A stretch of 45,509 nt of DNA, from the IMG/VR virus record IMGVR_UViG_3300034073_002048, positions 1-45,509 of that record, one strand, 5' to 3'. The notes below the pieces were generated by a model, which worked only from the letters and a program-made list of their open reading frames with translations, did no database searches and was not told the origin of the DNA. A program made the translations under genes and the position numbers. This document shows, in pieces, positions 3,030 through 41,655 of this stretch. Position 1 is the first letter of the stretch; each line of letters opens with the position of its first letter. This DNA is from a virus.

Positions 3030-3431
3030 ATGGCTTTTCTTGAAAAACCCAATGGTTGGAAGCATTGGTTAAAACAGTCCGCTAGAATGTGCTTTCCGAT
3101 GATGCAAGACTTCTATGGGTGCTGGGATGCTACAAAGGAATTTGTTGCAAAAGTAGGAGGAATGCTCTTAAAACTTATTGTAAGACTGTGTTTACTTGTG
3201 TCATTCCCAATCTCTATCCCACTGTTAACCTACATGTTCACTAAACAAAATAGACGTACAATGGAATACCGTGCGAATTGGTTAAGTACAGAGCAAGACG
3301 GATTTCCGCCTCAGTATACGAGGGAAGAGGTAGATAGGGTGTTGCGAGGTGAGTGTACGTTGGAACAATTGGAAAAAGAGCGTGAAGTTAAGTGGGCTAG
3401 TGGTTTGGTGGTAACAAAGGAGGAAAATTAA
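3030..3431 (+). CDS. membrane-associated hypothetical protein, 133 aa
   Basis: AAGGAGGTTTA precedes the ATG. One long hydrophobic stretch (about residues 45-70, LLKLIVRLCLLVSFPISIPL) lies between a basic N-terminal part and a charged C-terminal part (LEQLEKEREVKW). Unrecognised. Confidence 0.6.
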   Translation: MAFLEKPNGWKHWLKQSARMCFPMMQDFYGCWDATKEFVAKVGGMLLKLIVRLCLLVSFPISIPLLTYMFTKQNRRTMEYRANWLSTEQDGFPPQYTREEVDRVLRGECTLEQLEKEREVKWASGLVVTKEEN

Positions 3432-3433
3432 AT

Positions 3434-4183
3434 ATGGCACGACAAGCAGTGACACGAAAGAGTAAGGTAGAATCAGGTACAACTCGTACTATTAAGCCAA
3501 AGTTCGCAGAGCAACGTGAGGCAACTATTCAGGCGAAACCTTTGGTAGCTATGAATTCAAAGCAGAGAGAATACATTGCAACTTTGCAAGAAAAATCTGT
3601 GATTGTGGCGACAGGATACGCAGGAACCTCGAAGACATACATCCCTACGGTGATGGCGGCAGACTTATACAAAATGGGCAAGATTGACAAGATTATCATC
3701 ACGCGCCCTGCGGTAAGTTCTAGCAAGAGTGTGGGCTATTTTAAGGGAACAGCTACAGAAAAGCTCGCGGTTTGGCTAAACTCTGTAATCCCCATCTTTA
3801 AAGAACGACTTGGTGCAGCAGGGTTGGAGATTGCTCTTGCATCTGGAGATATTGAGTTTGTACCGCTTGAAGTTATCAAGGGAATGTCGATTAATAATGC
3901 TTGGGTGTTGGCAGAAGAGTCTTCTGATTTGACTAAAGATGAGGTCATCAAACTTGTAACACGGATGGGTAAAAACTCAAAATTGGTTTTGAGTGGAGAT
4001 ATTAGGCAGGCCGAATTAAAAGGTGATCTGGGCTTGGCGTGGGTTGCTGAGTTTGTTAAACGGCACAATCTGGAGGAAAACTTCGGTTTTATAGATTTTA
4101 ATGATGTCAATGACATTGTTCGTTCAGATGCTGTGCGTCAATTCATTGTTGCCCTTGTTCGGGATGAGAAGCGAAAGGATTAA
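3434..4183 (+). CDS. phoH: PhoH-like ATPase
   Basis: 249 aa, the usual size of phage PhoH proteins. The N-terminal MNSKQREYIATLQEKSVIV is followed by the P-loop GYAGTSKTY (about residue 62). TRPAVSS, the Walker B region AWVLAEESSDLT and the sensor segment VLSGDIRQAEL are in PhoH order. The P-loop carries Ser where most family members have Gly (GTSKT for GTGKT). PhoH proteins are cytosolic P-loop ATPases related to the ATPase part of RNA helicases and are common in phages; the exact role is unknown. ATG follows AAAGGAGGAAAATTAAAT. The ClpP-like gene starts 2 bases after its stop. Confidence 0.9.
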   Translation: MARQAVTRKSKVESGTTRTIKPKFAEQREATIQAKPLVAMNSKQREYIATLQEKSVIVATGYAGTSKTYIPTVMAADLYKMGKIDKIIITRPAVSSSKSVGYFKGTATEKLAVWLNSVIPIFKERLGAAGLEIALASGDIEFVPLEVIKGMSINNAWVLAEESSDLTKDEVIKLVTRMGKNSKLVLSGDIRQAELKGDLGLAWVAEFVKRHNLEENFGFIDFNDVNDIVRSDAVRQFIVALVRDEKRKD

Positions 4184-16502: not shown

Positions 16503-17081
16503 ATGAGTAAAATCTGGGTAACGAGTGATCTTCACATTAGTCATAGGAAAATCTGTGAATACACCGACCGTAAGCTGGTGGTATCTCAAGACCTGCACGA
16601 CCAATGGCTTATTGATCTTTGGAATTCACAAGTTAGCAAGAACGACACTGTTATTCAATGCGGAGACTTTGTTTTCAATTGTCGTGATTTCAATAAGTGG
16701 CAATCTGTTGTAAATCAACTGAATGGAAAGATTATTCACATTGCTGGCAATCACGATTCACACGAAGTTCTGCGTAAGTCTAGACATGAGTGGTATGACC
16801 TGAAGACAAAGACATTCTCTGTCGGAGGTGTTAAACGACAGTTTGTATTCTGTCACTACGCTATGAGAGTGTGGCAAAATAGTCACCACGGTAGTATTCA
16901 TTGCTTCGGACACAGCCATGGAGGGATCAAGGAGCAACACGGAAAGAGCCTTGATGTTGGGCTAGACAGCAGCTATAATTACTTTGGAAAACACAAGTTT
17001 TTCTCTTTGGAGGAGATTGTAGAAATTGCTGACCGACAGGGTGTTGCAACAGTAGATCATCACACAGAAAGGACACAATAA
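16503..17081 (+). CDS. calcineurin-like metallophosphoesterase
   Basis: 192 aa from ATG 16503. Family metal motifs in order: TSDLHISH, CGDFVF, AGNHDSH, VFCHYAM and FGHSHGG. It would cleave phosphoester bonds with a two-metal centre; substrate unknown. The start lies 2 bases after the kinase stop, suggesting co-expression. Confidence 0.85.
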   Translation: MSKIWVTSDLHISHRKICEYTDRKLVVSQDLHDQWLIDLWNSQVSKNDTVIQCGDFVFNCRDFNKWQSVVNQLNGKIIHIAGNHDSHEVLRKSRHEWYDLKTKTFSVGGVKRQFVFCHYAMRVWQNSHHGSIHCFGHSHGGIKEQHGKSLDVGLDSSYNYFGKHKFFSLEEIVEIADRQGVATVDHHTERTQ

Positions 17082-17236
17082 TGAACAAACACAAACAACG
17101 AGGATATTTACCAGACTTAACATCATTCTTTATTTTCTTGATTCTTGCAGGAGTGGTGATTGGTGTGGTATTATCTTTTGGTGTCCCATTCCTATGGGAA
17201 CTCATCAAGCCACTTATTCACGCAGCGACAGCATGA
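17081..17236 (+). CDS. small membrane protein, 51 aa
   Basis: TAATG overlap with the previous gene, AAAGGACACAATA upstream. One long hydrophobic segment (residues 15-38, containing FIFLILAGVVIGVVLSFGVP), then LWELIKPLIH. Short proteins of this pattern recur in tailed phages; function unknown. Confidence 0.6.
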   Translation: MNKHKQRGYLPDLTSFFIFLILAGVVIGVVLSFGVPFLWELIKPLIHAATA

Positions 17237-17442
17237 CTTGGTTCTTTTTCTTTGTTTTCTCCATAACTGCACTAAACAGTATTATAATCTGGGGACTGCT
17301 AAAGAAAGCTGGATTTGAAGACACAAATATACTTCTTGTATCTGGGTTGTGCTTGCTTTCAGCTTGTTTGATGTATAATTCTGCTACAGGAGGAAATCAG
17401 AAAAATGTATTTGAAATACGACAAGAACACACAAGGAACTGA
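17233..17442 (+). CDS. small membrane protein, 69 aa
   Basis: ATGA overlap with the preceding gene (17233). Two hydrophobic segments (about residues 2-21 and 29-47). The in-frame ATG 17194 is rejected because it lies deep in the preceding gene. Confidence 0.55.
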   Translation: MTWFFFFVFSITALNSIIIWGLLKKAGFEDTNILLVSGLCLLSACLMYNSATGGNQKNVFEIRQEHTRN

Positions 17443-18115
17443 CTACTGTGTAGGTGATTTGCACGGTTGTATCGATCGTCTGTATGACTTTCTTGCAGCG
17501 TTAGATTTCAATCCTAAGAAAGATCGTCTGTTCTCAGTGGGCGACCTAGTTGACAGAGGCCCAGACTCGGAACAAATCCTTTCGTTGCTGGAAGAAGATT
17601 GGTTTCACCCCGTCCTAGGCAACCACGAACAGATGGTGATTGAGGCTTACGAAGATGTTGCTGGAAGTGCAGAAGATTGCCTATTCCAGAACGGTGGTGC
17701 TTGGTGGTTTGGGCAACCACAGTCTTTTCAAGACGAAGTTGCTTGGGCTTTCCGTTCTTTGCCAGTAATGATTGAAGTTCCTGTAGGGGATAAAACATTT
17801 GGTATCATCCACTCTGATGTACTAGGAAATAGCTGGACTACGACCAGAGAAGAGTTGTGCTATAATAACTACTCCACAAAGAACTATGTCCTGTGGAACA
17901 GAGCACGACAAATGGATGAGTGGGTGAGTGTAGTGGAAGATGTAGATTGTCTACTTGTTGGGCATACACCAGTAGAACATGCTGCAATGCTTGGAAATGT
18001 GGTAAACTTGGATACAGGTGCTGTGTTTAAAGGTAAGTTTCCTGAGCACGAAGATGGGCTAACTATTTTAAACATGAATGACTTTGAATTTTACAAGGAG
18101 AGTGATTATGTCTAA
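17405..18115 (+). CDS. Ser/Thr-type protein phosphatase, lambda phosphatase-like
   Basis: 236 aa. Motifs in order: VGDLHGCIDR, SVGDLVDRGPDS, LGNHEQM, GIIHSDV and VGHTPVEH, the signature of the PPP family in the short lambda form (about 220 aa). It removes phosphate from proteins or small phosphoesters using Mn2+. ATG 17405 lies 38 bases inside the preceding gene with AGGAGGAAATC upstream. Confidence 0.85.
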   Translation: MYLKYDKNTQGTDYCVGDLHGCIDRLYDFLAALDFNPKKDRLFSVGDLVDRGPDSEQILSLLEEDWFHPVLGNHEQMVIEAYEDVAGSAEDCLFQNGGAWWFGQPQSFQDEVAWAFRSLPVMIEVPVGDKTFGIIHSDVLGNSWTTTREELCYNNYSTKNYVLWNRARQMDEWVSVVEDVDCLLVGHTPVEHAAMLGNVVNLDTGAVFKGKFPEHEDGLTILNMNDFEFYKESDYV

Positions 18116-21369: not shown

Positions 21370-21411
21370 AGATAGTTATCAAATCCCACCCCCACAATTT
21401 TAGAAACCACT

Positions 21412-21437
21412 AGCAGCCCTTGAGGCTGCTTTTTCTT
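21412..21437 (+). terminator. strong Rho-independent terminator ending the rightward block
   Basis: AGCAGCC (21412-21418), loop CTTGA, GGCTGCT (21424-21430), T-rich tail TTTTTCTTT. Confidence 0.8.
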
Positions 21438-22462
21438 TGCCTAAAATATCTGCCCACTATTTCTTTTGTTTTCTATTTGCCCGGATATTTAGTAAAGGTG
21501 TCTCTTCTGTGCTTTATCAATCTTGTGGCTCTATAGGAAAGGGGTCTAGCACCTAACCAGCCCGACCCCTGACATAATCCTACGATTCACGAATATCTAA
21601 GAGCTTGAACAATCCCCTAGATGCTGGAGATAATCAGGTGGGCATTAACTGCTACTCTCAGCTATGCCATGGATAATCATTCGATAATCTGAGCCATTAG
21701 ATTTTGATTAAATGCTTTTGAATAAGCAGGGAAACCTGCGGCTGTTTCAATAAGCTATCTCTATCCCTTGTGAATAGTGGATAGTCTGTAGCTAATAAAC
21801 TACCCTCTATTTAACATAATGATGGTTGTATTTATTTGACTAGCTACTCATAGCTAATTAGGAGGCTGAAGACTGGCTCCCCATCAGGCATAGCCTGATA
21901 CATTGTCAGCCTCATATATTGAGCCTATGGCTCATTATTTGTCCATAGCTTAATAAGCTATGTCCTACAGATAATAATCACAATAATGCATTCGGATTAA
22001 TAAATAATCCTCACACATTAACATTCGAGAATTGATCGCTTTTTAAGCTCTCATTCTCTCATTTTGTGTAAATTAATGACCCACTGGTCATTATATAATT
22101 TTATATAGTGTTGTGCTCCGGCGTAGCCCACCCACATACGTGTGTGTCCTCCTTGTCGCGTTAATTTTCAGCCTTTGGCTGTATATAGGCTTACATATTC
22201 CCCATATGCAAGCCATTGACCTATAAGGCTTTTGATTGTCTTTAGAAGCTCTAGAGATAGTCCTCTAGAAAGCCCTAGAAACCTTTTAAATTGATTGGGT
22301 AAGGGGTAGGCTAGGGATTGGGAAATTCTTCGTTATAGGGCCTTCTAGCCCTATTGTTAGCTATTTATTGTTTTATTCTTTTGTTATTGTTCTTTATTTA
22401 TTTTTGTTATGTTTACTGTATTCTACCAGAATTTGGGATTGATTGAATTTAGCTATGAATAG
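21438..22462. other. gene-free hairpin-dense region at the convergence of transcription
   Basis: No credible ORF on either strand. It holds at least eight perfect short inverted repeats: 21540-21570 (7 bp arms), 21726-21739 (GCAGG, GAAA loop, CCTGC), 21862-21913 (8 bp arms enclosing a second 7 bp hairpin at 21883-21899), 21920-21934, 21944-21962 (8 bp), 21994-22010, 22074-22093 (8 bp) and 22335-22354 (7 bp). It may be an origin, a packaging or boundary site, or a set of structured RNAs. Confidence 0.6.
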
Positions 22463-22490
22463 GACAAAAGAAAAAGCCCCGGAGGGCTTT
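22463..22490 (-). terminator. Rho-independent terminator (leftward)
   Basis: On the minus strand AAGCCC, loop TCCG, GGGCTT, then TTTTTCTTTTG; directly downstream of the gene ending at 22496. Confidence 0.8.
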
Positions 22491-22495
22491 TAGGT

Positions 22496-22723: not shown

Positions 22724-22768
22724 TTTATTCCCCTAAGTTTCCCCTGCACTATTGCAAGGTATGGCTAG

Positions 22769-22774
22769 AGTATA
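22769..22774 (-). promoter_or_regulatory. extended -10 promoter for the 22723 gene
   Basis: On the minus strand TGTGTTATACT (TG-N-TATACT), 46 bases before the start codon; no good -35. The 20 bases ending here match the plus promoter at 39396-39415 at 19 positions. Confidence 0.6.
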
Positions 22775-22853
22775 ACACAGTTTTTCCACACAAAGCAAAG
22801 AACCTCAAAGAAAATTAATTCTATCGAGGCTTGTTTTCTATAGCTTTTGACTA

Positions 22854-26102: not shown

Positions 26103-26136
26103 GCTGTGCATCCTTGTGTGCGGTTAAGATGGTTTC

Positions 26137-26142
26137 ATTCTA
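26137..26142 (-). promoter_or_regulatory. extended -10 promoter for the 26102 gene
   Basis: Minus strand TTGTGATAGAAT (TG-N-TAGAAT), 34 bases before the ATG. Confidence 0.5.
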
Positions 26143-26342
26143 TCACAATTTTAACGCTTCAAACTTCGCCACTGAGAAAAATTTCTTTTCTTGAATCAAC
26201 CCCGGCACAGCCTTTGAGAGGGTCAATCCGTTCCGTCGTTTGTTACGTTGGGTTCAACTATACCGGAAAAATCCACGCCGTAAACAAAAGATTTTCTATC
26301 AGGTTTCCACGATTGATAGGAATTAGCTATTGTATGGATAAA

Positions 26343-26368
26343 TAAAAAGCGCCACCAGTGGGGCGCTT
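26343..26368 (-). terminator. Rho-independent terminator (leftward)
   Basis: Minus strand AAGCGCC (26368-26362), 8-base loop, GGCGCTT (26353-26347), then TTTATTT; follows the gene ending at 26377. Confidence 0.8.
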
Positions 26369-26376
26369 GTTTATTA

Positions 26377-26580
26377 TCACTCTGATCTTAGTGCAGCCCT
26401 GCATAGTAATGCGTAAAAATAGCGCGCTGTCGATCCGTTCGCTGTTTTTGGTTTGCGGTAGCCGTATTCCTTGGACGCAATCAAAATTCTATCCACTATT
26501 TCAGACGGGAGGGTATGAAAATCAGCGTGTAAAGGTATCTGATTGTTTGTAGCTATTTGCTTTGCAGTGTATGGGTGCAT
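26377..26580 (-). CDS. hypothetical protein, 67 aa
   Basis: ATG 26580 is preferred (AAGGTTTACC upstream) over ATG 26619, which has no ribosome site. MHPYTAKQIATNNQIPLHAD, later STARYFYALLCRAALRSE. Unrecognised. Confidence 0.55.
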   Translation of the reverse strand: MHPYTAKQIATNNQIPLHADFHTLPSEIVDRILIASKEYGYRKPKTANGSTARYFYALLCRAALRSE

Positions 26581-26639
26581 GGTAAACCTTAATTCTGCAT
26601 AGCGCCCTGTGCGATGCATTGCCTAAATTATAACCACAA

Positions 26640-26645
26640 ATTCTA
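26640..26645 (-). promoter_or_regulatory. extended -10 promoter for the 26580 gene
   Basis: Minus strand ATGCTAGAAT (TG-N-TAGAAT), same box as at 24010-24015. Confidence 0.5.
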
Positions 26646-27271
26646 GCATCTCTCAATTGAAATTTTCTATTAACTCAATAGTTATAATCAATCAAGAATG
26701 TCCTGATTTTATGGCTATAATCGGTCCCAGTGGCTCGGATTATCTCCAGATTATCTCCAGGCCGTCTGCTCAATTTTTAGGCAGCGGCTGCGGCTTTTTC
26801 TCGCCTGCTTGGCGCTATGCTCGGCCCGGCGCTCATTTTGCCGCGTTTGGCCCAGTGTATTTTCTCGGTCGCCAAGTGCTGTGCGATCTAGAAATTTCGC
26901 CCGCGATGTATAAAATTTTTGGCCTAGTGAGCTGCTATATTACTTTCGTTCGCTATGTATGGAATTCTACTTGAAGCGTCAGCGAGCTATTGAGCTTTCG
27001 AGGCAGAGCGAGACAACGACAAGTCTTATATCATATAAACCCCTAGTACCCTGGGAGATACTGCGGCTGTACGGCCTTGTAGCGCTTTAAATAGTATAAG
27101 TAATACTTAGCCCTACCCCAAGCCCTGTTGAGCGTTTCTAGGGCGTAATAAAGCCCTCTAAAGCTATTATGCAATAGATGGCTAAAATTTGTATGCAAAA
27201 TTTTTGAAAACGTCAGCCACCAACTCACGCAATATCTGAGGGTTCAAATATTCAGTAGTTTAAATATTTCC
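26646..27271. other. gene-poor region with a GC-rich island
   Basis: No gene is convincing on either strand. 26730-26990 is clearly richer in GC than both flanks and contains a tandem ATTATCTCCAG repeat (26739-26760). An open plus frame (ATG 26711 to TGA 26974, 87 codons) crosses it but has no ribosome site. 27100-27145 holds GCCCT/AGGGC hairpins. Confidence 0.5.
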
Positions 27272-30239: not shown

Positions 30240-32333
30240 TCAATGGGTTTCCTTCCAGTTGTGTCCAATCTTAGCTTCACCAGCTAAGGGAACCTTGATC
30301 TTCAGAAACTCTCCTGCCTTCGCAATAGCTTTGACAATCATATCACCAATCTCTTCAGCAATAGGCTCCTCGGCCTCAAATTCTGCCTCATCGTGCATGT
30401 ATCCGATTCGACGCACTTTATGCCCCTTATAGAGATAGTAAGGCTTGCGATCTTCCCAATGAATTTCACCAAGCCAGTGATCCATGAAGCATAGAGCATA
30501 GTCCATTGCAATACCACCACAAGATTGAAAGATTGTATTCAATAGTGCAGATTTCTTACGAGTGCAGAGCATTCGACCATCAATGGCAGGAAGATACTTC
30601 TCTTTGCCAACCTGTTTCCAATATTTCTCAAGATTGTCCTTCAGTTGCTTTGTTGCAGGATTGGCAGCCCAAAACTTCTCAGAGATTTCCTTACCCCTGT
30701 GCTCTGGCAAGCCCGCTGTCGCAGCAATTTTGGCATCCCCCGCCCCATACAATCCGGCATAGAATACGTTCTTACTACGATCACGGAATGGCTTAAAGAA
30801 AGGGTCATCCTTGTTGAAATTAGGTGCAGTAATGTCAATATGGGCAAGTTCATCTTCATAAACTGATTTAGCTGTCTTACTGTGAATATCTCCTTCAAGC
30901 AAGTCTCGTGCTGTAGCTCCGCCATCGTATTTCCAAGTGTAATGCCCTTGGACTCGCCCTTCGAGGGCTGCCGCATCCGCCGCCGCAATCAGAAACCCAT
31001 CTTCACTTGTCCACAGAGAACGAAACTCATGACCAAGCAAAACCTTCTCTGATGCCTTGGGCACATTTACAACAACCGAGTGCTTCTGTCTGTGTGTCGC
31101 GGCAATACCTGTTCGACTAGCCCCAATACGGCCATCCATGCGTAGTCGCGGATTGTCTAGCCACCCTTGAAGAACACTACGACGATTACGGAGTGACAAC
31201 CACTTGACAACATCACCAACAATCCCTGTTTCCATTGCAAGCAGATTTTTACAAATCTTCCCCTGTTCCTGAATCTTAGGACTAGATTTAATCAGTTCCC
31301 TTGTCTTTGGATCACGCATTGGTTTCCCGTCTGGACCCTTCTTATAATTCCAAAGCGTAGGTTTCCATCCCTGTTCTAAGAACCAGTCCTTCATTTGATC
31401 TTGATTTGCCATTTCCATTGGTAATTCAATATCTAGTTGTTTTCCAGATTCGGGCTTGTACAATTTTCCATAGAACTCCCACTCTTCACCCACTTCTTTG
31501 CCACCATGTTTTGCAACAAATTTTTCCCATGTAGAAGAGAAAGAGCCGTCCTTCTTAAAAGGCTTTGATGGCATAGTATAGTCCTTTTCCTCTGTTTTCT
31601 TCAGAGCACGAGGCGGAAGCTTGGGTTCCACTTCAGCACGAATCTCTTCCATCATGCCGTCAATACGTACTGCAAGTTTCTTTGCTTCTTCTTGGTCAAA
31701 CTTCCATCCTGCTAATTCTTGGCAAGACATAAGATAAAAGGATTTCTGACCGCACTTGAAAGCTTGGGTATGTGTGAATGAGGTTCCGTAGATAGATTCC
31801 CATTCCTTTTTCAAACCATCAAGCACAAGAATGTTAACATCAACGTCGCGAGCACAATAAACGTCCATTTCAGGATGCCACTGCATAAACTCTGCGCCCT
31901 TTGGGCTTGAATGTTCAATCAGCCCAAGTTCAATAGCTTTTTCACGCCAGTTGATCTTCTCCAACCCTAGCTTATCACCAAACCACTCAATACTGTGCCC
32001 AGCACGATCAGGATTCAGGTACATTGAAAGATAGAATGTGTCAACCCACTTAACAGGCTTGCCTTCAATTGTATCTGGGCCAACTGTTGAGTTAATTCCT
32101 AAGAGATTACGGATAACAAAGTTATCAAAGCCCAAAATAAAGTGCCCTGCAATCGTAGGACATTCACCAAAAGAGAAGATAAAATCAATTACTTTCTTCT
32201 TTGCATACATGTCTTTGAATGGATTAACTCTAAGACTTTGACCTGTTTGCTTATGTTTCAAGACAATTGTCCAAATCTTAGTAGATTCAAAAATAAATCC
32301 ATCACTCTCAATGTCGTAGACAATCTCATTCAT
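30240..32333 (-). CDS. DNA polymerase, family A, T7 type
   Basis: 697 aa from ATG 32333, chosen for AAGGAAAATAAG just upstream. N-terminal 3'-5' exonuclease: VYDIESDGF (residues 4-11) and GHFILGFDN. Polymerase motif A is DAAALEGRVQGHY (about 450), motif B RDRSKNVFYAGLYGAGD (about 520) and motif C YMHDEAEFE (about 647); the C-terminus GHNWKETH resembles T7 gp5. It replicates the phage genome with the helicase encoded upstream. The start lies 2 bases from the end of an HNH gene, whose last codons supply its ribosome site. Confidence 0.9.
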   Translation of the reverse strand: MNEIVYDIESDGFIFESTKIWTIVLKHKQTGQSLRVNPFKDMYAKKKVIDFIFSFGECPTIAGHFILGFDNFVIRNLLGINSTVGPDTIEGKPVKWVDTFYLSMYLNPDRAGHSIEWFGDKLGLEKINWREKAIELGLIEHSSPKGAEFMQWHPEMDVYCARDVDVNILVLDGLKKEWESIYGTSFTHTQAFKCGQKSFYLMSCQELAGWKFDQEEAKKLAVRIDGMMEEIRAEVEPKLPPRALKKTEEKDYTMPSKPFKKDGSFSSTWEKFVAKHGGKEVGEEWEFYGKLYKPESGKQLDIELPMEMANQDQMKDWFLEQGWKPTLWNYKKGPDGKPMRDPKTRELIKSSPKIQEQGKICKNLLAMETGIVGDVVKWLSLRNRRSVLQGWLDNPRLRMDGRIGASRTGIAATHRQKHSVVVNVPKASEKVLLGHEFRSLWTSEDGFLIAAADAAALEGRVQGHYTWKYDGGATARDLLEGDIHSKTAKSVYEDELAHIDITAPNFNKDDPFFKPFRDRSKNVFYAGLYGAGDAKIAATAGLPEHRGKEISEKFWAANPATKQLKDNLEKYWKQVGKEKYLPAIDGRMLCTRKKSALLNTIFQSCGGIAMDYALCFMDHWLGEIHWEDRKPYYLYKGHKVRRIGYMHDEAEFEAEEPIAEEIGDMIVKAIAKAGEFLKIKVPLAGEAKIGHNWKETH

Positions 32334-32334
32334 C

Positions 32335-33120
32335 TTATTTTCCTTTCTTACCTCGGACATAGCCTTGAGAATCTACCCACTCCAAAGTTTTCAAAACATT
32401 TTCGTGAGCAGTGTCTTCATTATCGAAGTATCCTACACACTTTTGTTTAATTGGTGAACAACTCGTTAGTCTATAGTTGACATATGCTCTCCACTTATTT
32501 TTAGAATTGCTCCAGCAGACTCCATAGTATTTAGAAGTTTTTCCAGAGTAGAATCTTTTCCCATTCGGAGTAGTTCCATCCAATTCTAAGAAATGTTCCA
32601 CAATTTCATCATCTGTATGTGTTGATTTCATGGCTACAGCCTCTTCATATCTCTTTTTCGCTTTATCTATTTCATGTAGTCCAAATATTCCAACACATGT
32701 TCCAACATTGTTAATGGAGATTATACTTCTCAGTGTCTCACCATCCTGTGCAACTCCGATTACACCCGTACCTCTTTTAATTGCTAATGTCAAGTTATTT
32801 TGCTGTTCTCTTTTTGTTGCCCACCGGCAATTCTCTTTTGAATACCCCAAATCATTGTCAATCCTGTCAATTGTCATCCCATCTGGACGTGGAAACATAT
32901 CTTGCAAGAAGTTTTTAAAACCTGACGCACTATCCCATCTCCATTCAAAACAAACAGTGATACCCGAGCCTCCATAATGATTATATGCCTTGTGCCTGTC
33001 ATCATAGCACCTAACATTCATCATTCTCCAAGTCATGAACAACTCGTGAGAATTATAACTCTCTACACCAACCTGCCTTGTATACGCTATCTCACCAGAA
33101 AATTTTCTCTTGTATCCCAT
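32335..33120 (-). CDS. HNH homing-type endonuclease with two AP2-like domains
   Basis: 261 aa from ATG 33120 (AAAGGAGATGGTCATA upstream). HNH core in the N-terminal half: YGGSGITVCFEW, MTIDRIDNDLGYSKENCRW. Two DNA-binding units follow (GTGVIGVAQDGETLRS ... CVGIFGLHE; SKYYGVCWSNSKNKWRAYV ... CVGYFDNED). Unlike the three plus-strand HNH proteins, it lacks the N-terminal Cys-rich module and has the C-terminal unit twice. It is inserted between the primase-helicase and polymerase genes. Confidence 0.85.
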   Translation of the reverse strand: MGYKRKFSGEIAYTRQVGVESYNSHELFMTWRMMNVRCYDDRHKAYNHYGGSGITVCFEWRWDSASGFKNFLQDMFPRPDGMTIDRIDNDLGYSKENCRWATKREQQNNLTLAIKRGTGVIGVAQDGETLRSIISINNVGTCVGIFGLHEIDKAKKRYEEAVAMKSTHTDDEIVEHFLELDGTTPNGKRFYSGKTSKYYGVCWSNSKNKWRAYVNYRLTSCSPIKQKCVGYFDNEDTAHENVLKTLEWVDSQGYVRGKKGK

Positions 33121-33194: not shown

Positions 33195-35843
33195 TTAAAA
33201 GTAGTCTGCCGGTGCAGGCTCAAGCTGCCCTGTTTCCTCATTCAGCTTAACAACGTCTGCATGACCAAGCTGGCCCCAAGGTCGGTTCTTCAACACTGTC
33301 AGACGCAAACGTCCTCGTGAACGATCCGGCATGATTTCTGGCTCAAGACCTAGAATAACCCAACTAAGCTGTTCCAAGCTGGCGGAACCACGTAGGCTTT
33401 CCTTTTTTACATTGATAAAGAAAGGCTCGTCTTCCTTGCCCTTCGGAGGCTTGAACTCCTCTGCAACACCACGATTCAAGTGAGACACAGCAATGATGCC
33501 AACATCATGACTAGCAACAAAAGCAGCAAGCTCTGTCATCACCATATCAAGCATTTTTCGTTCGTCTGTTGTAGCAATACCACTAACAAGCATAGACAAG
33601 TGATCCAGAACGATGTAGTTCACATCAAACACGGACATTAGGTACTTGATCTTGTTCATTAGCTGCTCAATCAGCATACTGCCGAAGTGGTCTAGGAAAA
33701 CAAACCCATCATCTTCCTTTACCCACTTAAACGCTTCTTGAAGTTCTTCCTCCGAAACATACTTGCGAGGGTCAAACTTCATTCGGTTATAGTTTACTTG
33801 GCATTTGTGAGCAATCATGCGCAGGACAGTTTCTTTCAACTCTTCCTCCAGAAAGATCATACCAACCTTATATCCTGCAAGACGGATTTCGGCTGCAACC
33901 GTGGAACACAAGGTAGAGTTGTGAGTAATTTGACCGTCAGGAAGGCAGTACAAATGATCTCCATCTACCTCAAAACCGTAGTAGCGTCCGACGCCGACTT
34001 CCTCCACCTTCAAGCCAGTACGAAGCGGGTTCTTGTTAGGATTACGAACAGACTTTTTACGCAACAAACGATTTGGAATGCGATTTGTAAGCCCAGAAAT
34101 AATAATCCGTGAATACATCTCTCCTGCGAAGCCGGGGCACTTACAGAACTTGTCCTTAACGGTTACAACCAACCCAAGTGTGCGGGCAAGTTTGACAACA
34201 TCTAACGCAAGCTGATTCTTTTTCATAATCAGTTCATAAACCCCATTTGTGTAGTAGCCATCTCCGTCCAAGATTCCTGCAAGAACATCTAACCGTGTAC
34301 TCTGGTTTCCTAGCAACAGCTTTTCAGGGATATGTTTAAACCCTTCAAGTGCGTTAGACCGGAGCTTATTGATAAAACCACCACTCACGCGGCAGGTTAC
34401 ACTGTTTTCGCGGTCATTTGTAGGAGAGACAACCAGATTGTAGCCATTCTCTTCTGCATACTTCTTTAATTCCTCATGCAACTCCTTGTCGTGGCGATTT
34501 AGAGTAAAGCCAGTCCCGTTTGTCTCGCCTTCAGCCAACCACAAACCAAGGATATAAGCATCTTTATCCGCAGTGCCCTCACCACCCAGATTCACCATAT
34601 CTGCATACTTACCTGAAAGTACATGTTCTTTATAGTAATTAGGCAACCCGATGAAGTCCTTGACGGACACCAAGAACGAGTGGTTCTTTACCATACCTCT
34701 CGACACAACATCTGTATTACTTTCTGTATACAAGATGTGCTCACTATTTACTGTGTAACTTTGACCCTTGTTTGGTGTGACTTTGTAAATCATATCCACA
34801 CCGGAGTGTAAAGCTTTAACAATACGTGCAGAACCATCGGAACCCATAACTTTGTCTCCAATACGGATATCCTCTACTTTCTTAACTGAAAGATCATGCA
34901 TCAAGATTTCTTGACCCTCACCATGGCACTTGCCATACCCGGAAGGGCCAGTTACCACCCAAAGCTCACGCATACGGGGGCCGCCAGTCATTTCCATCAG
35001 CTCTGGGAACTGCGGGATGTTGACTCCAGGGACACGAGGCTTGATAAGCTCCTCAAAAGAGAGGCTATCGGCTGTCACTACTTTGTCTGCTGTGAACTTC
35101 TTTGTTGCAAAACTCAAAGCATTAGCTAGTTCCTTATATTTGCCAGCTTTTACATAGTCGTTAGGGTCATGGAAGTCTTTGTATTCCGCAACCATAACCT
35201 GTGACTTTGTGATTAGTAGGCCAACATCTTCTGTAGCTTCCTTGCCCTTCTTGATTTTCTTTGCAGCCTCCTCTGGTGTGGCTTCATCGTTGTCAAAACC
35301 AAGTACATTGACTTCAAATGATTCTACAAAGTCTAGGTTTACAGACACTGCGGCCTTGGCATTCCCCGTCCCGCAAGAGAGTCCAACAACAAAAGGCTCC
35401 ATTCCTGCATATTTTGTACCTTCCAATGTATCAACACACGCTTGGTAGGAACTTAACACGTCCCATTCTCCTTCGACAAGGAAAAGCTTTTTCTTAGGAC
35501 GTTTAATACTCTCCGCTACCTGTTGTCCGAACAGCTTGTTTTGGATACCAACTTTTCCTACGACAGTAAAATGGCCTGTGTCATACTTGTCCAGAGTTAG
35601 GTCACGCTTTTTGTAACCTGTTAGCTTCCCATCTTCATTATAGTAAGGAAAGTAAATAGCCTCTACAGAACGGTCTGTTGTTGAGAGTGCCATGCGGACA
35701 CCAAACTTCTCGTAAACCTCTTTACGAATACCTCGTTCGGGGTAGTCTGCAAAAGGAAGTTTACTAACTTCTGCCACTGTCTCTTTTTCTGCCATTTTTG
35801 TGTAATTCCCCTTCTTCATTCCACGTTTAAATTCATAACTCAT
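33195..35843 (-). CDS. gp4-type primase-helicase containing a LAGLIDADG intein
   Basis: 882 codons; the spliced protein would be 545 aa. TOPRIM-type motifs FLVEGEWDV (about 122-130) and GFDNDE (about 182-187) precede a RecA-type hexameric helicase domain: Walker A GPSGYGK-S-T interrupted after Lys 305, Walker B YIVLDHLS, VSHLNRG, SLRGSASLEQ. The N-terminal zinc-binding domain of T7 gp4 is absent. It would unwind the fork for the T7-type polymerase. AGGAACTT precedes ATG 35843; ATG 35795 is an alternative. Function requires intein removal because the intein splits the ATP-binding loop. Confidence 0.9.
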   Translation of the reverse strand: MSYEFKRGMKKGNYTKMAEKETVAEVSKLPFADYPERGIRKEVYEKFGVRMALSTTDRSVEAIYFPYYNEDGKLTGYKKRDLTLDKYDTGHFTVVGKVGIQNKLFGQQVAESIKRPKKKLFLVEGEWDVLSSYQACVDTLEGTKYAGMEPFVVGLSCGTGNAKAAVSVNLDFVESFEVNVLGFDNDEATPEEAAKKIKKGKEATEDVGLLITKSQVMVAEYKDFHDPNDYVKAGKYKELANALSFATKKFTADKVVTADSLSFEELIKPRVPGVNIPQFPELMEMTGGPRMRELWVVTGPSGYGKCHGEGQEILMHDLSVKKVEDIRIGDKVMGSDGSARIVKALHSGVDMIYKVTPNKGQSYTVNSEHILYTESNTDVVSRGMVKNHSFLVSVKDFIGLPNYYKEHVLSGKYADMVNLGGEGTADKDAYILGLWLAEGETNGTGFTLNRHDKELHEELKKYAEENGYNLVVSPTNDRENSVTCRVSGGFINKLRSNALEGFKHIPEKLLLGNQSTRLDVLAGILDGDGYYTNGVYELIMKKNQLALDVVKLARTLGLVVTVKDKFCKCPGFAGEMYSRIIISGLTNRIPNRLLRKKSVRNPNKNPLRTGLKVEEVGVGRYYGFEVDGDHLYCLPDGQITHNSTLCSTVAAEIRLAGYKVGMIFLEEELKETVLRMIAHKCQVNYNRMKFDPRKYVSEEELQEAFKWVKEDDGFVFLDHFGSMLIEQLMNKIKYLMSVFDVNYIVLDHLSMLVSGIATTDERKMLDMVMTELAAFVASHDVGIIAVSHLNRGVAEEFKPPKGKEDEPFFINVKKESLRGSASLEQLSWVILGLEPEIMPDRSRGRLRLTVLKNRPWGQLGHADVVKLNEETGQLEPAPADYF
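33918..34928 (-). mobile_element. intein with LAGLIDADG homing endonuclease, in the helicase P-loop
   Basis: 337 codons, residues 306-642 of the precursor. It begins with Cys (CHGEGQEILM) directly after GPSGYGK and ends with THN before Ser (STLCS), giving all splice residues. Splicing block B is VNSEHILY (365-372). Two LAGLIDADG-like motifs, YILGLWLAEG (430-439) and LAGILDGDG (521-529), indicate a homing endonuclease; the C-terminal blocks are YYGFEVDGDHLY and the final HN. P-loop insertion is a known favoured intein site. Confidence 0.9.
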
Positions 35844-37055: not shown

Positions 37056-38105
37056 TCAAGCTGTAACAACTTCAATACCCTTAATTTTCATAAGTTCCAA
37101 ACCGTCTGTTTTTAGCTTAGAACCTCCAAGGATGGCGTTTCCACATGTAACTAGCCCATCTTCTTCGTCCATAGATGGGACAAACACCAACACGTCAAAC
37201 CCGTTTTCTTTCAAAGACTCCTCTACGGGTGTGTAGGGTGCATAGCTCACGTAACCACTCTCTGTCTCGATTCCGTTTTCACGGCAAGCCGTGTTATTGT
37301 GAATTGGTGTAATTTTACACATAAACTTCTCTTTGTCAAAAAGATTTGCAACCTTCTTTCCATCAATCTCAAAGTCCGTAGAGTAGGCAAAATTTAGACA
37401 ATATTTTCGACTAACAGGATCGGGAAACTTCTCAGCAATCTTAGCAAACTCTTCGAGTGTTAGTGACATCCCTTTATACATCTGCTGACGTTGAACCTCA
37501 TTAGTCGAATTGATGCTGAATTGCAATCCGGCTTGTCCGTTGTACAAGTTGTTTTTAATATCAATCCAACGCTGCAGGCGGTCTTCCAAGCTTTTCAAAC
37601 TACGGGGTAGAGATGTTGTCAAGACTGGATGAATAACTTCAATAGACAACCCTGTATCAGTCTTGATCTGACGTTTATTGTTATACAGCCACACACTAAA
37701 TTCAAATACAGCATTATTAAAGATAGGCTCGCCCATCCGTGCAAAATGAATATTCATCCGTTCTGTATAAGTTTGCCCCTCGAACATACCAATTGCGTTA
37801 TAAAACTGGTCTTTCAAATCTTGAAAAGATACATTACCTTTCCATTCTACATTAGGAACATCACAGAACGTACAGTCCATGATACAACCATATTGGGTAG
37901 AAAGCGTAATAACCCACTTTTCAGATAGCGGCATACAGTTTGTATTAGGTACTCCATTGAGTGGTTTAGTATACCCCAGAAAATCTGCCTTTACGTTAAC
38001 ATGCTTACCGTAGTCACCAATAGACAATGTTTCCAAGCCACCCTTGGAATAGTTACCTGTAAACAGATAGCCGGTTGGTAAAGGAAAAATCTTATCTACG
38101 CTCAT
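37056..38105 (-). CDS. RlmN-like radical SAM protein
   Basis: 349 aa from ATG 38105 (AAGGAGAGTAAA upstream). The cluster motif QYGCIMDCTFCD (Cys 74, 78, 81) has RlmN/Cfr spacing CxxxCxxC. RMGEP, SINSTNE and a C-terminal TCGNAILGG (Cys about 321) correspond to RlmN landmarks, the last being the methyl-carrying Cys. The second RlmN Cys, 7 residues before the cluster motif, is Thr here. RlmN methylates A2503 of 23S rRNA and A37 of some tRNAs; whether this phage protein does the same is unknown. Confidence 0.75.
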   Translation of the reverse strand: MSVDKIFPLPTGYLFTGNYSKGGLETLSIGDYGKHVNVKADFLGYTKPLNGVPNTNCMPLSEKWVITLSTQYGCIMDCTFCDVPNVEWKGNVSFQDLKDQFYNAIGMFEGQTYTERMNIHFARMGEPIFNNAVFEFSVWLYNNKRQIKTDTGLSIEVIHPVLTTSLPRSLKSLEDRLQRWIDIKNNLYNGQAGLQFSINSTNEVQRQQMYKGMSLTLEEFAKIAEKFPDPVSRKYCLNFAYSTDFEIDGKKVANLFDKEKFMCKITPIHNNTACRENGIETESGYVSYAPYTPVEESLKENGFDVLVFVPSMDEEDGLVTCGNAILGGSKLKTDGLELMKIKGIEVVTA

Positions 38106-38115
38106 TTTACTCTCC

Positions 38116-38817
38116 TTAAAGAAATTCAGCCATATCAAACAATCGCGGAACAAAACCTCCTTGGTATGTCCCAGGAATAGGAATCAACGTATCTCCTGCA
38201 ATGTCAGCTCCCGGAAGTGAAGTGATGTTCTTGTACCAAGACTTCACGTACTTCTCTTCAATCGCGTCAAGGCGAATGATAACATGAAATCCTCCTCGTG
38301 TCTCAAGAATTTTTACAGCGTCTGGGTTGATGAAATTTCCAATCTGCTTCACAGTGGGTTCAATCTCAACGTTGTCAAAGTCTACATCAACAAACAGCTT
38401 TCGTCCAACGCTTTTGTGAATTGCTGTCAAGCTTTCTTGATAGACGTTAACATTCTGCTCCCCATCTGCAACAACGTCAGCAAGACGCTTTAGAAGCCAC
38501 TTGGCAGCTTTTGTTTGACTACGAGGGTTGATTGTCATGTAAGCAGCTAGAGCTTGTTGTGGAACTTCTATGCCTTTTACAGCATAGTTTCCAATTTCTG
38601 TTTCACATTGCTTTAGCTTCAATAGAAGGCGCTCACTCTTTGTTGTAAAACGAGCACACTGATGTTTGTCAGAATTGAATGTTCCAATTCCTAGCTCACG
38701 GATGTACTTGTCTCGTGCAAGCAGAGTTACGTAGTGACATTCCTCTTTCTCAAGAGGAGGAAGCCATTGTAGGAATTTGTTGAATTCCTGTTCGTCTACA
38801 ACTAGCTTGTAATTCAT
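38116..38817 (-). CDS. conserved phage protein with archaeo-eukaryotic-primase-like motifs
   Basis: 233 aa. KLFVDVDFDN (140-149) resembles the hhhDhD metal motif, ETRGGFHVII (172-181) the sGxGxHh motif and LIPIPGTYQGG (211-221) the PGT-containing third motif of AEP/PrimPol enzymes. The N-terminal 90 residues, with VTLLARDKYI and IEVPQQALAAYMTINPR, match a conserved phage family. Next to replication genes and with the helicase lacking a zinc finger, a priming role is attractive, but this rests on short motifs. Confidence 0.5.
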   Translation of the reverse strand: MNYKLVVDEQEFNKFLQWLPPLEKEECHYVTLLARDKYIRELGIGTFNSDKHQCARFTTKSERLLLKLKQCETEIGNYAVKGIEVPQQALAAYMTINPRSQTKAAKWLLKRLADVVADGEQNVNVYQESLTAIHKSVGRKLFVDVDFDNVEIEPTVKQIGNFINPDAVKILETRGGFHVIIRLDAIEEKYVKSWYKNITSLPGADIAGDTLIPIPGTYQGGFVPRLFDMAEFL

Positions 38818-38820
38818 ACT

Positions 38821-38997
38821 TTAACCTTTCAAGAAATAATTGTGCAATCCTGCACCGATTCTTTGCTTCTCAATCTTACCTTCTTTAACCATCTTCTTCA
38901 AGAGCTTGACAGTTTTCTCATTGCGATAGGACAATGGGTTATCTGGAACACCCCCTTTAGAAGCAATCACAGCTAAAATTGTTTCTTGTTTAACCAT
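38821..38997 (-). CDS. small winged-helix-like protein, 58 aa
   Basis: ATG 38997 follows AAGGAGTAAAAGA. KQETILAVIASKGGVP, then EKTVKLLKKMVKEGKIEKQR ends in a wing-like strand (HNYFLKG). The helix-turn-helix-wing order suggests DNA binding; weak evidence because of size. Confidence 0.5.
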   Translation of the reverse strand: MVKQETILAVIASKGGVPDNPLSYRNEKTVKLLKKMVKEGKIEKQRIGAGLHNYFLKG

Positions 38998-39001
38998 TCT
39001 T

Positions 39002-39247
39002 TTACTCCTTAAGGTCTTTATCGATCTTTGCAATCAGTTCTAGAATAACTGGACGAGTGTCTGTAAACCAATCGCTCTCACCACCATCTTCTTTGTTGGG
39101 TTGTTTTGCAAGCATGAATGCTGTATAGGCGACATCAATGATCCGAGGTGTCAGACGATTGTGTAAATCGTTCTGCAAAATATATGCAACAAGACCATCA
39201 AAAGAACTCTTCCAAGCCAGAGGGACTTCAGTTTCTGTGTATAGCAC
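39002..39247 (-). CDS. hypothetical protein, 81 aa
   Basis: GTG 39247 with AAAGGAGAAAGAA upstream, first gene after the leftward promoter at 39280-39309. VPLAWKSSFDGLVAYILQND and RPVILELIAKIDKDLKE; helical. Unrecognised. Confidence 0.6.
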   Translation of the reverse strand: MLYTETEVPLAWKSSFDGLVAYILQNDLHNRLTPRIIDVAYTAFMLAKQPNKEDGGESDWFTDTRPVILELIAKIDKDLKE

Positions 39248-39279
39248 TTCTTTCTCCTTTCAAATTATCAACAATACCT

Positions 39280-39309
39280 ATTGTACACCACTCATTGCCT
39301 ATCTGTCAA
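39280..39309 (-). promoter_or_regulatory. leftward promoter for the replication block
   Basis: Minus strand TTGACA (39309-39304), 18-base spacer, TACAAT (39285-39280), with GGTG before the -10. Confidence 0.6.
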
Positions 39310-39317
39310 CAACCTTC

Positions 39318-39353
39318 ACATTAGAATTTCTTAATCAACATTAGAATTTATTA
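39318..39353. repeat. two direct repeats, candidate operator
   Basis: ACATTAGAATTTCTTA (from 39318) and ACATTAGAATTTATTA (from 39338) are exactly 20 bases apart, two helical turns, between divergent promoters. Confidence 0.5.
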
Positions 39354-39360
39354 GGTACAT

Positions 39361-39384
39361 AACTACGTAGGACAGTACGTAGTT
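39361..39384. promoter_or_regulatory. 9-bp dyad upstream of the plus promoter
   Basis: AACTACGTA (39361-39369), 6-base gap, TACGTAGTT (39376-39384); perfect inverted repeat ending 3 bases before the -35 box. Confidence 0.55.
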
Positions 39385-39387
39385 CTA

Positions 39388-39415
39388 TTGACAAATGGAA
39401 AAACTGTGGTATACT
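39388..39415 (+). promoter_or_regulatory. strong plus promoter upstream of the structured region
   Basis: TTGACA (39388-39393), 16-base spacer, TATACT (39410-39415) preceded by TGTGG (extended -10). Confidence 0.75.
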
Positions 39416-39419
39416 TATA

Positions 39420-39910
39420 TCTATACATTGAACAAATGTAGCTCTTGTACTTCGGTGAAGATGTGTCTTAACAACATGCATCCGGACGGTCGGTACAAGT
39501 TCTATGCCCAAGGCGCGGATGGGGCTAAGTGTGATAGCTTCTGTAGTACGATGTACATATAAGTCTACAGAAGTGTGTGGGGCTGACAGATTTAACCTGC
39601 ACGAAGTATCGTTGTATTGTACCTGAAGATACAACTCTAGGCTAAACCTAGACAAATAACAGGCTCCGGGGGAATAGTTCTCTGGTGGGTTAGTTGCTTA
39701 CAATAAATTTATACCATGAGAGTGGTAGGGTTTATTGTATCTTCAAAAACTCACCAAGGGAATAATATACTAATAGATATAAGAATATTAATAGAGATAG
39801 ACTATAAAGATAGTACATTCTCTAACATACAATGTACCAAATAAACAACATCAAGGAAGAAAGAGCTAGAAGAACAAAGAATTCTTCAGTTCCTTCTTCC
39901 TTTTCTTGTT
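39420..39910 (+). ncRNA. candidate structured non-coding RNA, about 490 nt
   Basis: Downstream of the strong promoter and without a plus-strand ORF. Perfect inverted repeats in order: 39424-39440 (6 bp), 39444-39450/39493-39499 (7 bp, enclosing CTTC-GGT-GAAG), 39538-39546/39565-39573 (9 bp), 39611-39617/39629-39635 (7 bp), 39636-39641/39647-39652 (6 bp), 39699-39707/39731-39739 (9 bp, enclosing a 5-bp hairpin with TGAGAG loop) and 39813-39819/39831-39837 (7 bp). It ends in a terminator-like stem at 39853-39902. No known RNA family is recognised. Confidence 0.55.
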
Positions 39911-39916
39911 TTTGTG
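39853..39916 (+). terminator. terminator of the structured RNA
   Basis: AAGGAAGAA (39853-39861) pairs with TTCTTCCTT (39894-39902), enclosing GAAGAA/TTCTTC (39869-39874/39882-39887); followed by TTCTTGTTTTTG. Confidence 0.6.
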
Positions 39917-39925
39917 TGCTATGAT
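39917..39925 (+). promoter_or_regulatory. extended -10 promoter for the right-hand plus genes
   Basis: TGC-TATGAT (39917-39925) directly after the terminator; the -35 (TTCCTT, 39897-39902) is poor. The first ATG is at 39956. Confidence 0.5.
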
Positions 39926-39955
39926 ACGTTTATCCACTAACTTAAAGGAGGTTGT

Positions 39956-40339
39956 ATGGAAATTAGTAAGGATTTTAAAGAATGGCTGAGTCAGTATGGT
40001 CATGATTATTCAGAGAGAAACACAGTAGAGCGACGAGAGTATATAAGTAGCACTAACTTGTTTGACGGCAAGACACTTTCGGAGGTGATTCTAAGTGCCA
40101 AGGCATTAATGGCTGAATACGGTGATGTAACCTATGAAGAACATTGGACAGGGTATGAAGATATGTCGCCTTCTTTGGTTTGGTATGCAGAAGAGACAGA
40201 TGAGGAATACTCTGATAGGATTGAAGGGCTTCACAATACTTATCTGAAGCAATGTGCTGAAGAGAAGAAACGTAAAGAACGAGAGAAGCTTGAAGAAGAA
40301 ATGAAAGCTATTCAAAATAAGTTGAATGCTTTGAAGTAA
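39956..40339 (+). CDS. hypothetical protein, 127 aa
   Basis: AAAGGAGGTTGT precedes the ATG. N-terminal FKEWLSQYGHDYSERN; C-terminal coiled coil rich in Lys/Glu (AEEKKRKEREKLEEEMKAIQ). Unrecognised. First gene of the right-hand plus block. Confidence 0.65.
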   Translation: MEISKDFKEWLSQYGHDYSERNTVERREYISSTNLFDGKTLSEVILSAKALMAEYGDVTYEEHWTGYEDMSPSLVWYAEETDEEYSDRIEGLHNTYLKQCAEEKKRKEREKLEEEMKAIQNKLNALK

Positions 40340-40358
40340 ACTTAATAAAGGAGTGAAC

Positions 40359-40562
40359 ATGAAGTTTAAGAAATCTTACACAAATGATACAACCATAACT
40401 GAGGATGTTTATGACAACAGTTATCCTAAAGAGCCTATAGGAGGTACAAATCCGTATTGGTGTTGTACTAGTTGTGGAAAAAGTGATCCAGCAATCAATG
40501 GTAGGTTGCAAAATCATCACACGTGGTGTGAATACAGGTTGCGTAAAGAATCAGAAATTTGA
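40359..40562 (+). CDS. small zinc-ribbon-like protein, 67 aa
   Basis: AAAGGAGTGAAC before ATG 40359. WCCTSCGKSD (CxxC) and NHHTWC supply four candidate zinc ligands 20 residues apart. Nucleic acid or protein binding is possible; unproven. Confidence 0.5.
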   Translation: MKFKKSYTNDTTITEDVYDNSYPKEPIGGTNPYWCCTSCGKSDPAINGRLQNHHTWCEYRLRKESEI

Positions 40563-40596
40563 TAGGATACACTCATCACTTAACAAAGGAGAGACT

Positions 40597-40908
40597 ATGA
40601 AACTTACTATCTATTCATTCAAGACATATGAAGATTTTCAAACCCTTAAAGGTGAATTTAACCATCTTGGGTATGATGTTATGTACAACATTTATGGAGC
40701 CTATGTGCGCCATTCCGAAGAAGCTGTGAAGTACTTCACTTCAATCACAGAAGGTGTTTCAACACAGGAAATCTTGTGCAACAATGGAGACATGGTGAAT
40801 TACATGCTCGGTTGGTGCGAAGACAATGGTTGGGATGCGGAGGTTGTGTACTGTTCTGAAGGTAAAATTGATACAGCTCCTATGGTAGATGGTTTCTTGA
40901 CAAACTGA
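40597..40908 (+). CDS. hypothetical protein, 103 aa
   Basis: AAAGGAGAGACT precedes ATG 40597. MKLTIYSFKTYEDFQTLKG then NHLGYDVMYNIYG; small alpha/beta domain. Unrecognised. Confidence 0.6.
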   Translation: MKLTIYSFKTYEDFQTLKGEFNHLGYDVMYNIYGAYVRHSEEAVKYFTSITEGVSTQEILCNNGDMVNYMLGWCEDNGWDAEVVYCSEGKIDTAPMVDGFLTN

Positions 40909-40926
40909 CCTTATGGTTGGTATATT
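40897..40926 (+). promoter_or_regulatory. sigma70-type promoter
   Basis: TTGACA (40897-40902), 18-base spacer, TATATT (40921-40926) preceded by TGG. Overlaps the end of the upstream gene. Confidence 0.55.
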
Positions 40927-40945
40927 CCAGAATAAAGGAGAAAAC

Positions 40946-41377
40946 ATGCAGCACATCGCTATGATAGAAAGGAAAGAAGAGACTTCTTGGTTTCCTAAGA
41001 TTGGTGTTTATGATTTCAATCATTGGTATCCTAAATCTAAAGTTAAGAAGTGGTTGAAGAAATCAATCGAGAGGTTTCTAATGAAACAGAAGATTGAGTA
41101 TAATGAAGCAACTGTGAAGTTCAAGAACATTAGGATTGATGAAGACAATATTCTTGCTCAACTTAAAATCTCTTCTGATGTACTTTACAAAGCTCACATG
41201 GAAGCTAGACACATCTTGATTGGCAGGGACAGATATTATGAACTGGTTGGAGAGATTGGACAAATGTTTACAGTTTCTGCAAACTATCAAGACAGATTTG
41301 AAGTGTTTGGAATGAAAGTTACATTTGTTCCATGGATGGAAGGTGTTCTTATTTTACCAAAGGATTTTAAATGCTAA
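40946..41377 (+). CDS. hypothetical protein, 143 aa
   Basis: ATG 40946 after AAAGGAGAAAAC. Basic, with KSKVKKWLKKSIERFLMKQK; a beta-rich C-terminal half (VFGMKVTFVPWMEGVLIL). Unrecognised. Confidence 0.65.
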   Translation: MQHIAMIERKEETSWFPKIGVYDFNHWYPKSKVKKWLKKSIERFLMKQKIEYNEATVKFKNIRIDEDNILAQLKISSDVLYKAHMEARHILIGRDRYYELVGEIGQMFTVSANYQDRFEVFGMKVTFVPWMEGVLILPKDFKC

Positions 41378-41655
41378 CAGTTCCAAAAACACTTGAAGAA
41401 TTTGCAAAAGCAAATAACAAATCAGTAGAAGTTGTCAAACGTGAGCTTTTCAGTTATATCGATATGTTGATGGAAATGAATATTTCGGCGGAGGTGTTGG
41501 ATTGTGGACTCTATCATAACCACATACACAATTCTCCGAAGAATATGGTAGACTCCCATAAAGCTTTGTTATTTGCAAAGTATGACCACCTTTGTGGAAA
41601 TATCCCAGAACCGTCTGGACCGAGCATTATTTTTGTTTATCATGAGGAGATTTAA
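41371..41655 (+). CDS. hypothetical protein, 94 aa
   Basis: Overlaps the previous gene by 7 bases. MLTVPKTLEEFAKANNKSVE; ends SIIFVYHEEI. Unrecognised. Confidence 0.55.
   Translation: MLTVPKTLEEFAKANNKSVEVVKRELFSYIDMLMEMNISAEVLDCGLYHNHIHNSPKNMVDSHKALLFAKYDHLCGNIPEPSGPSIIFVYHEEI

Follow-up and report, generated by a model that had tools for sequence, protein, structure and literature searches.

A large structured RNA at the divergent junction of a phage genome and its possible role as a transcript-primed replication origin

The DNA analysed here, referred to as the window, is a 45,509-base IMG/VR record of a virus of bacteria. One noncoding stretch of the window very probably makes a structured RNA. 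An earlier note on this DNA had proposed a large structured RNA at this place, and this proposal holds: searches of Rfam are negative, comparable RNAs occupy the same place in five relatives and compensatory changes are seen in the part that can be aligned. In all six phages, the junction between divergent genes shows the same order, namely a promoter, an RNA of 300-440 nt, a pair of repeats and A+T-rich DNA. The association of a promoter, a transcript with mutually exclusive folds and easily melted DNA is the layout of a transcript-primed origin of replication, and for this reason our preferred, although tentative, reading is that the RNA could be such an origin, by analogy with ColE1 RNA II and T4 oriF. 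To our knowledge, the start of replication in the 80-95 kb myophages of this lineage is not established. If the RNA is a primer, it would be a conformational-switch primer RNA in a lytic phage, bridging the ColE1 and T4 origins.

The locus and its features

The window encodes a family-A DNA polymerase (30240-32360, minus strand) that shares 69% identity with its counterpart in Pseudomonas phage vB_PsaM_M1 (hereafter M1), a phage of 89.4 kb classed under Ounavirinae. As the earlier note stated, the RNA locus stands at the head of divergent transcription units. These consist of replication genes directed leftward and small genes directed rightward. GC skew switches sign at this locus but tracks gene direction everywhere, and thus cannot be used as a test for an origin. 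Two more stretches of the window, each longer than 1.1 kb, are free of called genes (21370-22495 and 26103-27271). The features of the RNA locus are as follows.

39361-39384, no strand assigned: palindrome AACTACGTA-GGACAG-TACGTAGTT (6-nt spacer), directly upstream of the -35 box (sequence)
39388-39415, plus strand: sigma-70-type promoter TTGACA-16-TATACT with extended -10 (sequence scoring)
39422-39760, plus strand: structured RNA body (fold, inverted repeats; position matching five relatives)
39424-39440, plus strand: 5' hairpin, P0-like (fold, inverted repeats)
39444-39499, plus strand: P1-like stem (7 bp) around a smaller hairpin; it does not align with the P1 domain of the relatives (fold, inverted repeats)
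39538-39573, plus strand: hairpin with a 9-bp stem (fold, inverted repeats)
39611-39635, plus strand: P4 hairpin (7 bp), with positional counterparts in relatives (fold, inverted repeats)
39636-39652, plus strand: P5 hairpin (6 bp), abutting P4, with positional counterparts in relatives (fold, inverted repeats)
39662-39669, plus strand: linker motif GGCTCCGG, common to the window, M1, L030 and L015
39670-39676, plus strand: R1, GGGAATA, first copy of a direct repeat (repeat comparison)
39677-39683, plus strand: S, GTTCTCT, anti-repeat able to pair with R1 or R2 (pairing, energies)
39683-39756, plus strand: P6, long 3' hairpin (fold, energy comparison)
39752-39757, plus strand: CACCAA motif, 3' foot of P6 (comparison with relatives)
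39758-39764, plus strand: R2, GGGAATA, second copy of the direct repeat (repeat comparison)
39761-39822, no strand assigned: A+T-rich stretch, candidate DNA unwinding element (nearest-neighbour stability)
39853-39910, plus strand: terminator-like hairpin with T-rich tail (inverted repeats, fold, sequence)
39917-39925, plus strand: second promoter, extended -10 TGC-TATGAT with a weak -35, serving the rightward genes (sequence)

The promoter described in the earlier note is confirmed. Its -35 box TTGACA (39388-39393) and its -10 box TATACT (39410-39415, preceded by TG) are separated by a 16-nt spacer and give 11 matches out of 12, which makes it the joint best site within 38000-41500. A consensus -35 box joined to an extended -10 implies that no activator would be needed, and the RNA would start at about 39421-39423. 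The palindrome upstream is operator-like and could possibly be an operator. The core of the RNA promoter, GTGGAAAAACTGTG-TATACT, recurs in a further strong promoter of the window (22755-22788, minus strand).

The earlier claim that the stretch has no plus-strand open reading frame is nearly right: frames of 40-55 aa exist, but no longer ones, and a codon-usage gene caller calls zero genes in 39248-39955. The double stem with a T-rich tail is present at 39853-39910 and would stop the RNA about 90-150 nt past R2.

Fold and search for known families

The window RNA is rich in perfect inverted repeats. When arms of 6 or more and loops of at most 50 are counted, it has 16 of them, whereas 200 dinucleotide shuffles average 5.3 and 0/200 reach 16. 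For arms of 7 or more, the count is 6 against 1.6, a number that is again reached by none of the 200 shuffles. The repeats initially named from the letters are exact, at 39444-39499, 39611-39635, 39636-39652, 39699-39739 and 39853-39902, the last two having arms of 9 bp. In the same way, the two hairpins said to sit end to end at 39611-39652 do so, P5 directly abutting P4. The folding z is -5.45 for 39422-39912 and -2.60 for the body without the terminator (39422-39760), from which it follows that much of the excess comes from the terminator hairpin.

The RNA had been said to belong to no known family, and a search of the stretch against Rfam agrees, with no credible family at either gathering or relaxed thresholds. 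A match to mir-1252 (E 0.00065) was rejected, as it covers the terminator hairpin only and lies under the cut-off of that family. GOLLD, ROOL and HEARO are large ornate RNAs found in phage or mobile DNA; none of them gives an Rfam match to the window RNA at either threshold. No tRNA or tmRNA was found in the stretch, and direct comparison of the window RNA with phage DNA records gives no credible similarity. The virulent Pseudomonas phage PAK_P3 produces two intergenic noncoding RNAs, sRNA1 and sRNA2 (PMC4933390), but these are about 100 nt long and abundant late.

Relatives with and without the RNA

Scans with the polymerase, used as a single sequence and as an alignment, led to several dozen related loci. 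In most relatives with a readable junction, the divergent gap is only 160-300 nt and a comparable RNA is missing; the RNA is therefore not needed for replication across the lineage. Carriers were picked by a long noncoding gap together with the motifs. In five relatives, the same junction has a promoter followed by a long noncoding stretch, with shared motifs: M1 (locus L006 of our set, OP714164.2, RNA region 3139-3620) and the IMG/VR loci L015, L020, L030 and L053. Three other candidates, L028, L046 and L051, were discarded, their long divergent gaps appearing unrelated. In M1, an annotated CDS (UZS00817.1, L006 3441-3614) overlies R1-P6-R2; its frame is stopped by a TAG in L030, hence it looks spurious and is probably not a gene. 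Wider searches for carriers brought one genome contig, which ends short of the RNA region, and zero matches with the neighbouring 127-aa and 233-aa genes. In IMG/VR, DNA patterns taken from the 5' domain matched nothing but the carriers already known and chance sites, mostly in coding DNA.

The 5' domain of M1, L030, L015 and L053 can be aligned by sequence alone. In its outer helix P1, 100% of the cells are paired and both sides have changed at four of the five pairs, one cell of this covariation being a G-U. A possible pseudoknot helix in the same domain has 75% of its cells paired. The covariation score of P1 with this helix is matched by 0/500 shuffles and exceeds all slid controls. Highly conserved unpaired stretches are also present in these four phages. 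A swap test on hand-picked helices also passes but was set aside, since it is biased by the choice of strands for their pairing.

A model of the 5' domain (P1, the TTGGGWNAACC loop and TTAAAG) scores 76-87 bits in M1, L030, L015 and L053, and only at background in the window and L020, which indicates that this domain is not universal among carriers. A second model was built for P2 to R1 on the sequences of M1 and L030. It recovers the correct place in L053 (11.7 bits) and, with filters off, in L015 (8.2 bits), but in the window nothing beyond GGCTCCGG. Compensatory changes among homologues, which the earlier note had put forward as a check, are thus seen in P1 of the relatives, but formal covariation was counted only in the 5' domain of these relatives, where the window does not align. 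The case of the window rests on its position, its 3' module and its own fold.

These data bear on one alternative, that the locus is ordinary intergenic DNA with inverted repeats due to chance. It would suit the z of only -2.60 for the window body without its terminator and the failure of covariance models from relatives to score the window. It is nevertheless very unlikely, given the inverted-repeat count that no shuffle reaches, the identity of R1 and R2 at anchored places with GGCTCCGG and CACCAA common to four phages, the covariation in the relatives and their folding (z of -3.66 for M1, -5.56 for L015, -3.73 for L030 and -4.90 for L020, the fold of L053 being ordinary at -1.15).

A shared 3' module with a repeat, an anti-repeat and a second repeat

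The 3' module is ordered as follows: two hairpins, the linker GGCTCCGG, R1, S, P6, CACCAA and R2. In the window, M1, L030 and L015, a short linker joins P5 to GGCTCCGG. The module is present in the window from GGCTCCGG to R2 at 39662-39764. It is through this module and its position only that the window belongs with the five relatives. Within each of the window, M1, L030 and L015, the 7 nt after GGCTCCGG are identical to the 7 nt after CACCAA (7/7), whereas between these phages the repeats share on average 2.3 of 7 positions (GGGAATA in the window, AGAGGAT in M1, GCGAATA in L030, GGTTGAT in L015). M1 and L030 can be aligned end to end, yet both copies of the repeat differ between them. In L053 (AGTAGGAT) and L020 (ATTGGGATG), the anchors have changed and a repeat is still found at both places.

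A segment S, complementary to the repeat, lies between R1 and P6 in the window (GUUCUCU), M1 (UUCUUUUUG), L030 (UUCUAUUU), L015 (UUAGUCUUG) and L020 (UCAGUCAG); none is evident there in L053. In these five of the six carriers, S can pair with either R1 or R2, the two states being mutually exclusive. Relative to a fold with neither, the gain in energy in the window, M1, L030 and L020 is 6-8 kcal/mol for R1:S and 11-13 kcal/mol for S:R2. In L015, S:R2 is weak and R1:S is favoured; neither state is seen in L053. R1 is preceded by CCGG and R2 by CCAA, and owing to this difference the S:R2 pairing contains fewer G-U pairs. Judged from sequence, this arrangement suggests that R1:S forms first and is then displaced by S:R2. 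In an unanchored scan, repeat-antirepeat triples as strong as these are not rare in shuffles and are not significant in most of the sequences.

The pairing of a segment with one neighbour or the other is also the usual layout of an attenuator (1:2 versus 2:3). The RNA could thus be a cis-acting leader, acting by attenuation or antitermination, in which the R1:S and S:R2 hairpins would decide whether the polymerase enters the rightward genes. The RNA does head the rightward unit, and in M1 and L030 the first gene begins within about 40 nt of R2. However, no U-run lies behind S:R2, and the window terminator (39853-39910) does not overlap the switch. A promoter placed behind this terminator would make attenuation pointless. 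This second promoter, coming after the RNA, makes the attenuator less likely, and we regard it as improbable.

Easily melted DNA after R2

An A+T-rich stretch was spotted after R2 while the carriers were being read, ahead of any ranking. According to nearest-neighbour stability, no place in the window is weaker than 39761-39822, whether 40, 60 or 80 bp are considered. The 40 bp after R2 rank, by instability, 1 in 45.5 kb in the window, 7 in 90 kb in M1, 6 in 84 kb in L030, 18 in 94 kb in L015, 4 in 52 kb in L020 and 1 in 17.5 kb in L053; at 60 bp, the rank is 6 in L015 and 1 in L020. Four relatives without the RNA (87-93 kb) served for comparison: the best 40-bp place in their divergent region ranks 219, 43, 293 and 191, although at 60 bp the rank is 9 in one of the four.

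With its direct repeats next to a palindrome and to A+T-rich DNA, the locus could also be a site that acts as DNA, an origin or a recombination site where R1 and R2 would be repeat-binding sites around a DNA hairpin and the RNA would be incidental. This is quite unlikely: the pairings use G-U pairs, which fail in the other DNA strand, the covariation of P1 includes a G-U cell, and the promoter recurs at the same place in 6/6 carriers.

The origin is only slightly more likely than an early RNA that acts in trans. Such an RNA would act on a host or phage target as a protein decoy, an antisense or an anti-defence RNA; R1-S-R2 would control its folding, and processing would take place in its AU-rich tail. 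It would account for a strong promoter proper to the RNA and, in the window, for a terminator with another promoter behind it that serves the genes; second promoter-like sites also occur in L053, L015 and L020, and within P6 of M1 and L030. The conserved unpaired stretches of M1, L030, L015 and L053 would suit protein binding, and a presence in some relatives only fits an accessory function. However, a trans-acting role does not predict a genome-extreme low stability right after R2 in every carrier. No target is known, and the 5' domain varies between carriers. Even in this role, the phage RNA would be structured and would have no described family.

Proposed function as a transcript-primed origin

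The origin reading could be pictured as follows. A noncoding RNA would be transcribed from a strong host-type promoter that heads two divergent transcription units. It would belong to a group of six or more related RNAs of phages, which combine a variable 5' domain with the shared R1-S-P6-R2 module. During synthesis, S would first pair with R1. Once P6 and R2 have emerged, S would switch partner to R2, which would free the linker and R1. The RNA would stay annealed to the template in the easily melted DNA past R2, and its 3' end, produced by RNase H or by pausing, would serve the family-A DNA polymerase of the phage as a primer for the leading strand. Strand exchange, R-loop formation and priming are the steps that we infer. 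It is more doubtful that these RNAs represent a new class of phage replication origin. In such a class, replication would be primed by a large structured transcript that carries a conserved three-strand switch and controls its own hybridisation to the adjoining unwinding element, the 5' domain being exchangeable between phages.

In favour of the origin, genes for a family-A polymerase and for a DnaB-like helicase, itself weakly similar to Toprim, are present in the window. Several observations argue against it: L053 has no evident S, S:R2 is weak in L015, the window terminator comes soon after R2 and an unpaired AU-rich RNA would equally fit an RNase E site. The RNA had been thought regulatory or host-directed. 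The data support a large structured RNA outside the described families, whereas R1-S-R2 and the easily melted DNA point rather to a primer-type RNA. The primer reading names short segments, R1, S and R2, that are directly testable by mutation.

In the alpha/beta/gamma scheme of ColE1 RNA II, one segment has a choice of two pairing partners, like S in the phage RNA. RNA II adopts two alternative conformations, and priming takes place from the RNA-DNA hybrid that one of them forms (PMC11012335; PMC5043065). The phage RNA would resemble it as a noncoding transcript of a few hundred nt with two predicted alternative conformations, whose promoter lies upstream of the supposed start site: the promoter at 39388-39415 is followed by about 350 nt of noncoding sequence up to R2, the candidate origin. 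The differences are also clear. No minus-strand promoter of the kind that yields antisense RNA I recurs within the RNA, hence a ColE1-type copy control is absent. The window and M1 RNAs have zero matches in a plasmid collection, and no sequence similarity to ColE1-type origins was found. A+T-rich DNA follows the RNA here, whereas ColE1 does not require an A+T-rich origin (PMC5043065), and a family-A polymerase is encoded by the phage. The RNA is not a member of the ColE1-type origins, but it may work like one. The R-loop origins oriF and oriG of T4 measure about 100 bp in their minimal form and have a MotA-dependent promoter, with no large conserved RNA described, whereas here a structured RNA of 300-440 nt separates the promoter from the A+T-rich DNA.

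Other observations on the window and the carriers

An intein carrying a homing-endonuclease domain splits the helicase gene of the window (33195-35843). The DNA of P6 contains a promoter-like site in M1 (TTGACA-17-TAAGAT) and in L030 (TTGACA-17-TATAGT). The first 40 nt of the RNA are complementary to the repeat in L020 (AUCCCAAUC, 9 bp) and, for R1, in L053 (AACAUUCU, 8 bp); this was rejected as a general trait, being absent from the other carriers. In L015, an operator-like dyad, CTAGTTGTAAAAATACAACA, flanks the RNA unit near both promoters (reverse complement, 16540-16560 and 17015-17036). In L020, a homing-endonuclease-like gene with MUG113 and T5orf172 domains lies directly behind the RNA (reverse complement, 16920-17453). 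Behind this gene, 17454-17520 holds a second tail, CTCACCAA-AGGATAGGATAATA, as though the gene had brought with it the 3' end of a further RNA copy.
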